This document shows positions 8,014-11,063 of a DNA stretch of 12,565 nt, in pieces. Source of the stretch: Candidatus Aenigmatarchaeota archaeon (GTDB lineage Archaea; Aenigmatarchaeota; Aenigmatarchaeia; CG10238-14). Made by a program: the position numbers and the translations under genes. Position 1 is the stretch's first letter. The number at the start of each line of letters is the position of its first letter. The notes under the pieces are model-generated. The model had not been told where the DNA came from, did no database searches, and saw only the letters and a list, made by a program, of their open reading frames with translations. Location of the stretch: contig JANXDN010000004.1 in the NCBI GenBank assembly GCA_025058005.1, positions 1 through 12,565 on the forward strand, written 5' to 3'.

Positions 8014-8047
8014 CATCATAGGCTACTAACGGCAATAATTCAGGCCT
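8014..8047 (+). other. 5' half of the 23S processing stem with BHB
   Basis: CATCATAGGCTACTAAC (8014-8030) pairs perfectly over 17 bp with 11047-11063. GGCA (8031-8034) pairs with 11040-11043, ATA (8035-8037) is a 3-nt bulge, and ATTCAGGCCT (8038-8047) pairs with 11030-11039. With the AAA bulge on the other strand this is the canonical 3-nt bulge, 4-bp helix, 3-nt bulge target of the archaeal tRNA-splicing endonuclease. Predicted cut between 8036 and 8037. Confidence 0.93.
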
Positions 8048-9178
8048 ATTCACCCTACTTGGTGGATGGCTTGGCTAGAGTACCGAAGAAGGACGTGGTA
8101 AGCTGCGAAAAGCTCGGGGTAGGCGCACGCAGCCTTTGAACCCGAGATTTCCTAATGGGAAATCCCTTTATATTCCCGTATGGGAAGGGCTACGCGGGGA
8201 ATTGAAACATCTTAGTACCCGCAGGAAAAGAAATCAAACGAGATGCCGTGAGTAACGGCGAGTGAAAGCGGCATAGGGCAAACCGAATGTTCTGCGAAAG
8301 CATGAACAGATGTGGAGTTTTGGACTTGGGTCCACCTTCGCTTGCCGACTCAAAGTCGGCTGAAACGCCGCGCCATAGAGTGTGATAGCCACGTAGAGGA
8401 AGGCAAGAAAGGTGATGCCAAGTATCCAGAGTACCTGTCCTTGAATTTGGATAGGGAAAACGGGTGTCATTGACATCCAACCCTAAATATAACTCTAGTC
8501 CGATAGCGAACGAGTATCATGAGAGAAAGCTGAAAAGTAGGTTTAACGACCGGTGAAAAGAGCCTGAAGCCAAGTAGGTATAGTCTGGTGCGGCTCCAAA
8601 GCAACAGCAGAGTTGCACCGTCCGTTTCGAAGAATGGGTCAGGGAGTTTATCCGAGTGGTGAGCCGAAAGGCGCAGCGAAAGCGAATAGCCCGTAGCTAG
8701 CAGTAGCGTGGGGCTGGGTGCGAATAGCGCCCGAAATCACTCGGATAAGACCCGAAGCCGGACGATCAAACCCTGGGCAAGGCAAAGTCTGGCGAAAGCC
8801 AGATGGAGGCCTGCTACCGATGCTGAGGACCAATCGCTCGGGTGACCTGGGGTTAGGGGTGAAAAGCCAATCGAGTCCGGCAATAGCGGGTTCCTCCCGA
8901 AATGTACCTCAGTACAGCATAGCCGGAGACGGACAGGGGGGTAGAGCTACTGATTGGACAGTCAAGGGCCGAAAGGCTCAGCTGCCCTGTCAAACTCCGA
9001 ATCCTCTGTCGTCGTAGATGGCTATAGTGAGGATATCGGGGTAAGCTCGGTATCCGAGAGGAAAACAGGCCAGACCAAGGTTAAGGTGCCTAAATGTTGG
9101 CTAAACGATGAAAGATGTCTGAACCCTTAGACAGTGGGGAGGTGGGCTTAGAAGCAGCCATCCTTTAAAGAGTGCGTA

Positions 9179-9261
9179 AGTGATAGTGTTTTATGAAAAT
9201 AGGACGGTCATCTGAAAAGATGAAGATTAAGCCATTATTTGATAAACACTATCACCGCAAA
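9179..9261 (+). other. 23S rRNA intron spliced at a bulge-helix-bulge
   Basis: The conserved GCGUAACAGCUCACC is split after GCGTA. At the junction TGCG (9173-9176) pairs with CGCA (9256-9259), with 3-nt bulges TAA (9177-9179) and AAA (9260-9262) and a 12-bp intron helix GTGATAGTGTTT (9180-9191) with AAACACTATCAC (9244-9255). Only one pair (G9172-C9263) supports an exon-side helix, so this is a relaxed BHB. Cutting after the second base of each bulge and ligating gives exactly the conserved sequence. The insertion lies between E. coli A1095 and A1096, inside the L11-binding, elongation-factor-contacting domain, so splicing must precede function. The 83-nt intron has no homing-endonuclease gene. 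The excised product is expected to be circular, as for known archaeal rRNA introns. Confidence 0.92.
9180..9255 (+). ncRNA. Intron-encoded C/D box sRNA, guides for C1920 and U1971
   Basis: The whole intron reads as a dual-guide methylation RNA. The intron helix is the terminal stem. Box C is ATGAAAA (9193-9199) and box D is TTGA (9239-9242): sheared G·A and A·G pairs plus A9197-U9240 and A9198-U9239, an all-compensated K-turn, with one extra U at 9243. D' is CTGA (9212-9215) and C' is TGAAGA (9221-9226), identical to the leader sRNA and with the same 5-nt separation. Both spacers are exactly 12 nt. The D guide TTAAGCCATT (9227-9236) pairs over 10 bp with 10093-10102 and selects U10095 (U1971). 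The D' guide GACGGTCA (9203-9210) pairs over 8 bp with 10041-10048 and selects C10044 (C1920 in helix 69). Box C is non-consensus, which is the main weakness. Confidence 0.75.
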
Positions 9262-10692
9262 ACAGCTCACCCACCGAGGGTTCAGGCTCTGAAAATGGAA
9301 GGCACTAAGCCAACTACCGAGACCTTGGACCTCGAAAGAGGTGGTAGGGAGGCGTCCCGGATGAGCAGAAGCATGATCGTAAGATCGTGTGGATCGTCCG
9401 GGAATGAAAATCCTGACACTAGTAGCAGCATAGCTGAGTGAGAACCTCAGCCGTCTAAAGGGCAAGGGTTTGCCAGCAATGTTGATCAACTGGCAGTTAG
9501 CCGATCCTAACCACAAGCGTTAACATAGCTTGGGGAAAGGGAAATCCGTTAATATTCGGATGCTGTGGGGATACGCGCGGCAACGCAAGTCAAGGATCAG
9601 ACCCTTGGGGATAAGCTGACGTAAGTTAATCATCCAAGCCTGGGGAGTCTCGTTATGAGGAGAACCAGGTGAAAATGAGATGAGCTTGGCTTAAGCCAAG
9701 TTCAGCTTATTCCTTGAGGCCATGAAAATGGTCCTTGAAAGGATTCCTCACACTCGTACCGAGAACCGCCACAGGTGCCCTCGCTGAGAAGGCGAAGACG
9801 TGCTAGGCTACTCCGGGTTAGGGAAATCGGCAATCCAGCCCTGTATCTTCGGTAGAAGGGGTGCCTATGCTCCTCACAGGGAGCGTAGGTCGCAGTGACA
9901 AGGAGGAAGCGACTGTTTAACAAAAACATAGGGGACCGCTAGACAGAAATGTTGTGTATGGTCCCTGAGGCCTGCCCAGTGCCGGTGTGTGAAACCCGAG
10001 TCCAATCGGGCTAAGCCCCGGTAAACGGCGGCGGTAACTCTGACCGTCGTAAAGTAGCGTAATCCCTTGCCGTTTAATTGACGGCCCGCTTGAATGGCTT
10101 AACGACTTCCTCGCTGTCCCAACCCGGAACCTAGTGAACCTGCCATTCTGGTGAATAGGCCAGAGACCACCAACGGGAAGCGAAGACCCCGTAGAGCTTT
10201 GCTGTAGTCTGGCGTTGCATTACGGCTGAGGATGCAGAGTGTAGGTGGGACCCGCTTGTAGGTTAGGCTTCCGGGTCTAACTGAGGGGCTGTTGGAACAC
10301 CACCCTTTCTTAGCTGTAATGCTAACCGCGACAGCGGGACACCGCTTGATGGACAGCTCGGCTGGGGCGGTACACCCTTGACAATAGATCAAGGGTGCCC
10401 AAAGGTCAGCTCATCCCGGTCGGAAATCGGGAGTAGAGTGCAAACGCAAAAGCTGGCCTGACTGGATTCTGGCCAACAAGGAATCCAGCCGCGAAAGCGT
10501 GGGTTAGCGATACATCGGTTGCTCTCAATGGGCGCCGGTGGTATCAGAAAAGCTACCTCGGGGATAATGGGGTCGTAGCTTCCGAGAGTCCATATCGACG
10601 AAGCGTGTTGCTCCGTCGCTGTCGGCTCCCCCTCACCTGGCTGTGCAGTAGCAGCCAAGGGTACAGGTGTCCACTGGTTAAAAGGGGACGTT

Positions 10693-10726
<34 letters not shown>

Positions 10727-11029
10727 GGTATCTGTTGGTGGTGCTTGCCGTCTGAGGGGAAGGTCGGGTGAGTACGAAAGGAACGCCCGATCGCGGCCTC
10801 TGGTGTATCGGTTGTTCATGCATTGCCGAGTAGCTACGCCGTAGTGGATAACCGCTGAAGGCATCTAAGCGGGAAGCCACCCCTAAAAAGAGACGGCAAT
10901 TTGCATCGCTGCTTGGCAACAAGCGGTGATGTGACGAGGGCTCCCATAGACGATGGGGTTGATAGGGCGGAGGTGTAAGCATCAAGGGTGCGCCCGAGAT
11001 GTTCAGCCTACCGCTACTAATCGCCCGAG

Positions 11030-11063
11030 AGGCCTGAATTGCCAAAGTTAGTAGCCTATGATG
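11030..11063 (+). other. 3' half of the 23S processing stem with BHB
   Basis: AGGCCTGAAT (11030-11039) is the inner helix, TGCC (11040-11043) the central helix, AAA (11044-11046) the bulge, and GTTAGTAGCCTATGATG (11047-11063) the 17-bp outer helix, partner of 8014-8047. Predicted cut between 11045 and 11046, giving a circular pre-23S of 8037-11045 and, if the flanks are ligated, a leader-trailer product that carries the rpl31e reading frame. Confidence 0.93.

Follow-up and report, generated by a model that had tools for sequence, protein, structure and literature searches.

A BHB intron in an archaeal 23S rRNA gene with the features of a box C/D guide RNA for its host rRNA

The window analysed here is a stretch of 12,565 nucleotides from contig JANXDN010000004.1 of a Candidatus Aenigmatarchaeota archaeon, whose 511-kb assembly has a completeness of 74%. 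The window contains a 23S rRNA gene at 8037–11040 on the plus strand (Rfam RF02540 LSU_rRNA_archaea, 2602.6 bits), which hosts an 83-nt intron (9179–9261, plus strand) and both of the sites that the intron is predicted to target. The intron is located after E. coli A1095; E. coli numbering follows the K-12 rrlB record, with window positions matched by eye. The splice sites form a BHB motif, in which the exon strand UGCG (9173–9176) pairs with the intron strand CGCA (9256–9259) to give a central helix of 4 bp flanked by 3-nt bulges, read from the sequence as UAA (9177–9179) and AAA (9260–9262). Cuts at UA/A and AA/A would restore the host RNA; the resulting junction, GCGUA/ACAGC, is the uninterrupted sequence type of relatives, and the exact empty site occurs in three of them (G006, G001, and G002). 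The intron coordinates given in the original prediction are correct. The intron contains no homing endonuclease gene and has no room for one.

The predicted fold closes the intron by a terminal stem with arms at 9180–9191 and 9244–9255. The fold of exon plus intron is better than that of shuffled sequences (z −3.08), one of 200 shuffles being equally good or better. Minimum-energy folds also close part of the intron interior, which in the window takes the form of a hairpin across D′ and C′; kink-turns, which are beyond the reach of the method, do not appear in these folds.

Between the arms of the stem, the intron is laid out as box C, 12 nt, box D′, 4 nt, box C′, 12 nt and box D. Box C (AUGAAAA, 9193–9199) departs from RUGAUGA and box D (UUGA, 9239–9242) departs from CUGA; box D′ (9212–9215) reads CUGA and box C′ (9220–9226) reads AUGAAGA. 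The spacer before D′ (9200–9211) carries a helix-69 guide, the core of which (9203–9210) pairs over 8 bp with 10041–10048. The spacer before D (9227–9238) carries a helix-71 guide with a core (9227–9236) that pairs over 10 bp with 10093–10102. All of these elements are on the plus strand, and the two targets are separated by 51 nt. The nucleotide methylated by a C/D guide is picked by the N+5 rule, which here designates C10044 and U10095 as the predicted 2′-O-methylation sites; their counterparts in E. coli K-12 rrlB are C1920 and U1971. The boxes, both spacers, both pairings and the two selected nucleotides had been proposed beforehand, and all were recovered, the pairings and nucleotides at the positions proposed. 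The accompanying suggestion that the ACCGUC helix-69 stem is peculiar to this organism is wrong: ACCGTC is present in 17 of 18 genomes of the order and ACTGTC in G022, a count made with a script that printed only stretches resembling the query. An Rfam search of the intron gave no C/D family match at E up to 0.5.

Relatives were searched in sets of 12 (family), 36 (order) and 156 (class) genomes. The 23S stretch was matched in seven of the 12 family genomes, four of which contain the intron (the window's genome, G007, G009, and G003); the other three readable sites are the exact empty sites mentioned above. The same intron is present in the public Candidatus Aenigmatarchaeota contigs JAOAJH010000006.1 (isolate SKW179) and JAHLMN010000008.1 (isolate DRTY-7_1_bin_34), taken as G009 and G007, respectively; three bacterial matches in the same search were taken as chance. 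The homologous introns known number only four, three of them from a single genus. Alignment of the homologous introns, which had been suggested as a check of the prediction, showed that the boxes, the 12-nt spacers and the guides are kept in the three relatives.

The columns invariant among the four introns amount to seven of seven in C′, nine of 12 in each spacer, three of four in D′, five of seven in C, and three of four in D, and all eight spacers are 12 nt long; exon identity between the window and G003 is 74% across 2360 columns. In the introns of the window, G007 and G009, the three covered by this count, pairing with the window's 23S extends over 8–9 bp for the D′ guide and 10–11 bp for the D guide; G003 was missed by that script, and its spacers and targets were read separately. 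Box D′ is CUGA in three of the four introns and CGGA in G003, C′ is one change off the consensus in all four, and box C takes the form AUGANNN. The terminal D box departs from the consensus in every intron (UUGA, UGGA, UCGA, and UGGA). Inspection by eye indicates that a GA/GA core and an A–U pair replacing C–G are kept in all four.

The stem is conserved as pairing. Four of 11 stem pairs change on both sides, one of them between exon and intron, and 100% of the cells are paired; in G003, a G–C pair of the BHB central helix is replaced by A–U across exon and intron. Three of the seven outer stem pairs compared in the four introns change on both sides. Slid controls gave at most one both-side pair, and among 500 shuffles, 37 attained four both-side pairs and three attained the covariation score. 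An unrooted tree of 23S places G006, which has no intron, with the window's genus, and G003 with G001 and G002, which also lack it; the split has a support of 1.00 and the order inside it 0.55. This distribution implies that loss or transfer of the intron has occurred.

The odds of such an arrangement arising by chance were estimated from 20,000 dinucleotide shuffles of the intron. Any C/D-like unit was found in 3102 shuffles, two units in order in 76, one unit with at least 10 bp in nine, and two units each with N+5-anchored pairing of at least 8 bp to 23S in a single shuffle. The 10-bp helix-71 match was attained in 0.27% of 3000 spacer shuffles; the 8-bp match by itself is weak evidence. 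The box definition used in the shuffle test is loose and was fixed after the data were seen, and the relatives therefore carry more weight.

The helix-69 guide also recurs outside 23S, in five genomes. A pattern consisting of a box, 12 nt containing GACGGTC, and a box was found in eight of the 36 genomes of the order, with one match for the control, and in nine of the 156 genomes of the class versus three control-pattern matches. The nine genomes comprise the four with 23S introns, three with free-standing RNAs (G012, G013, and G031) and two with tRNA-Thr introns (G035 and G132). The four intron-bearing genomes have one pattern match each, namely the intron, and the intronless G006, G001 and G002 have no helix-69 guide by this box-spacer pattern. 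A model built from the intron core sequence and run against the 36 genomes of the order recovered the four introns at E values of 5e-17 to 8e-15, followed by G012 (1e-6), G035 (5e-6), G031 (1e-5) and G013 (0.004); in all, 23 of the 36 genomes gave at least one match with an E value no higher than 1. Ten of the loci matched by the model were read, of which four are guides described here and six are weaker and contain no guide by eye. A looser helix-69 pattern, which misses G003 and G031 with their different D′ boxes, gave 12 matches, seven of them RNAs described here, with one match for the control. Matches in G065, G131 and G132:C76 (coding-like) and in G096 (16S-like) were discarded by eye. 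A match in the 23S of G125 was also rejected as a helix-69 guide; it sits in a small insert that closely follows helix 69, has no C box by eye, and resembles neighbouring inserts. This G125 23S region (L107, minus strand) has several short inserts with arms resembling TGAC-N-GC and GC-N-GTCA. It contains seven hairpins with exact 6-bp arms versus 0.1 in shuffles, one of which comprises helix 69 and the insert just downstream with GACGGTC, CTGA and ATGAAGA.

The free-standing copies in G012 and G013 are near-canonical C/D RNAs located outside rRNA and tRNA, and G031 is a weaker candidate for a free-standing guide RNA. The G013 copy scores 32.3 bits against snoPyro_CD, under the cut-off of 45. 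By eye, the second guide of the G012 RNA matches the 16S stretch AGGATTAGATAC, which we take to be conserved, and that of the G013 RNA matches 23S GACTGTTTA, a sequence present in the window near 9911. An apparent tandem C/D RNA cluster occupies L070 of G012 around 1440–1526 on the minus strand, where the helix-69 guide RNA is followed by a second C/D-like unit with an sR14 match of 20.7 bits, below the cut-off. In G035, the guide lies in the 54-nt intron of a tRNA-Thr(UGU) gene (L073, 1451–1579, plus strand; Rfam tRNA 61.7 bits) and in G132 in the 74-nt intron of another (L082, 1440–1589, minus strand; 60.6 bits). The two genomes belong to distant families, and in G132 a G-to-U change in the target is matched by a C-to-A change in the guide. 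In their linear form, neither of the tRNA-Thr introns has a complete unit besides the helix-69 one. Completion of a second unit by circularisation was considered for these introns; in G132, an exact 12-nt spacer would run across the junction, but its pairing to the 23S-bearing contig is 7 bp only, and no second guide is claimed. The helix-71 guide was found in the four introns only among the 156 genomes, apart from one match in G113 that was put down to chance by eye; the control gave one match.

The 1095 site accommodates other introns as well. Those in G026, G021, G129 and G087 are likewise BHB introns, in which the scan found no C/D unit, and they resemble the guide intron, by eye, only in the splice-site sequence. 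On this comparison by eye, they are not counted as homologues that have lost the guide, and the site accepts guideless introns. In G125 (L085), the intron at this site is long and contains an ORF of LAGLIDADG type (PF14528, E 2.5e-11). The presence of other introns, including one of the LAGLIDADG type, suggests that the site takes mobile introns, one of which may have been domesticated to become the guide intron. Two further kinds of insertion were noted. In G132, G144, G149 and G146 (L086, L087, L089, and L090), a different insertion with long complementary arms follows CCTTTAA a few nucleotides upstream of 1095. In G018 and G026 (L020 and L011), an insertion follows GTAGCGTAA just downstream of helix 69.

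A fibrillarin gene was identified in all 12 genomes tested, the match in G035 being short only. The splicing endonuclease (PF01974) was identified in 11 of the 12, including G003, G007 and G009; the one genome in which the search missed it is that of the window, with its completeness of 74%. From the sequence features described above, we infer the following pathway. The intron would be transcribed as part of pre-23S, and its two kink-turn motifs would be bound by L7Ae, Nop5 and fibrillarin. Cleavage of the BHB by the splicing endonuclease would follow, the exons would be joined, and the intron would be set free, probably as a circle of 82–86 nt, at a presumed stoichiometry of one guide per 23S. 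The D′ guide would then pair with helix 69 and direct 2′-O-methylation of C1920, and the D guide would pair with helix 71 and direct 2′-O-methylation of U1971.

The intron, its BHB motif, the boxes, the guides, their conservation, the empty sites and the related guides outside 23S are direct observations on the DNA. A C/D guide RNA in the 23S intron is well supported by these sequences, most strongly for helix 69. The central idea of the original prediction, that the intron serves as a C/D guide RNA for the 23S in which it lies, gains support from the three homologous introns and from the helix-69 guide in C/D-type RNAs outside 23S. The intron is very probably a genuine dual-guide box C/D sRNA gene within 23S, with C1920 and U1971 as its predicted methylation sites. 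Weighing against this reading are the deviant boxes C and D, the negative Rfam C/D search, the partly closed interior of the predicted folds, the endonuclease missed in the window's genome, the patchy occurrence of the intron (four of seven readable family sites), the small number of introns, and the 37 of 500 shuffles that equal the count of both-side pairs. The opposite extreme, an ordinary BHB intron with boxes and guides that are coincidence or relics, would account for the non-consensus boxes C and D, for the four other introns at the site without a C/D unit, and for the three relatives that do without the intron. It is nevertheless highly improbable, given the single shuffle in 20,000 that reproduces the arrangement, the preservation of guides, spacers and C′ in four introns across exons as divergent as those of the window and G003, and the same guide in C/D-type RNAs elsewhere.

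The RNA might instead be C/D-like in form and act as a folding chaperone, pairing with helices 69 and 71 and not directing methylation at both. Retention of both 12-nt spacers and of both the D′/C′ and D/C units argues against such a role, as do the near-canonical boxes of the free relatives in G012 and G013 and the presence of fibrillarin; the degenerate boxes C and D, the 51-nt separation of the targets and the mere 8 bp of the window's helix-69 guide pairing are in its favour, and we regard it as quite improbable. It is also conceivable that function is confined to the helix-69 (D′) guide, with the helix-71 match as a passenger. The terminal D is the most degenerate box, the linear tRNA-Thr introns show a helix-69 unit and no other, and the class-wide search for the helix-71 guide led back to the four introns, bar the one chance match. 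Against this stand the rarity of a 10-bp match among spacer shuffles and the nine invariant columns of 12 in the helix-71 spacer, and a passenger guide is unlikely, though it deserves some weight.

A more tentative scenario, which we hold at somewhat less than an even chance, is that a methylation guide took over a selfish 23S intron site. The 23S gene would then make its own C1920/U1971 guide with each transcript, and the guide would have moved among 23S introns, tRNA-Thr introns and free genes, perhaps via circles. As transcription reaches the intron ahead of the two target sites, the guide could possibly act in cis and co-transcriptionally. If the intron is spliced out, an rRNA gene carrying its own modification guide would link guide supply to ribosome output, and some of the means for modifying the ribosome would be encoded, in certain very small archaea not yet in culture, within the ribosomal gene itself. 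rRNA introns, usually regarded as selfish, would gain a plausible use. The sharing of one guide by a 23S intron, tRNA introns and free genes, three different hosts, makes guide mobility testable.

Archaeal methylation hotspots include helices 68, 69 and 71 (PMC4644070). The closest known system is the pre-tRNA-Trp intron of the sR50 type, a C/D sRNA within a BHB intron that guides methylation of the RNA hosting it (PMC7994747); circular tRNA-Trp introns are reported in the archaea that another study reanalysed (PMC12558985). The 23S intron shares with the tRNA-Trp intron guides complementary to the host RNA, here both guides and the 23S host. It differs in that host and target are 23S rRNA, and the guides of the two systems are unrelated, compared by target only. 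In N. equitans, another DPANN archaeon, a C/D sRNA in a tRNA-Met BHB intron was detected by RNA-seq (PMC3491384); the host there is a tRNA and the excerpt states no target in the host RNA (PMC3491384), whereas the host here is 23S. As intronic hosts of C/D genes, the excerpted text of a 2021 review, which covers genomic context, gives tRNA introns and no rRNA introns (PMC7994747); in the excerpts of a review on rRNA introns of archaea, the only ORFs that appear are those for endonucleases (PMC3608112). No C/D guide inside an rRNA intron was found in the titles and abstract openings returned by text searches of an open-access library. The finding would extend the self-guiding intron from tRNA to rRNA. 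Among the relatives described here, the free-standing RNAs of G012, G013 and G031 have the same helix-69 guide but no intron, with near-canonical boxes in the former two. The tRNA-Thr(UGU) introns of G035 and G132 are of BHB type at the anticodon and carry the same guide, the predicted target of which is rRNA and not the tRNA host. Archaeal 23S homing introns are also BHB introns in 23S, but in the intron described here guides are present instead of an endonuclease gene.
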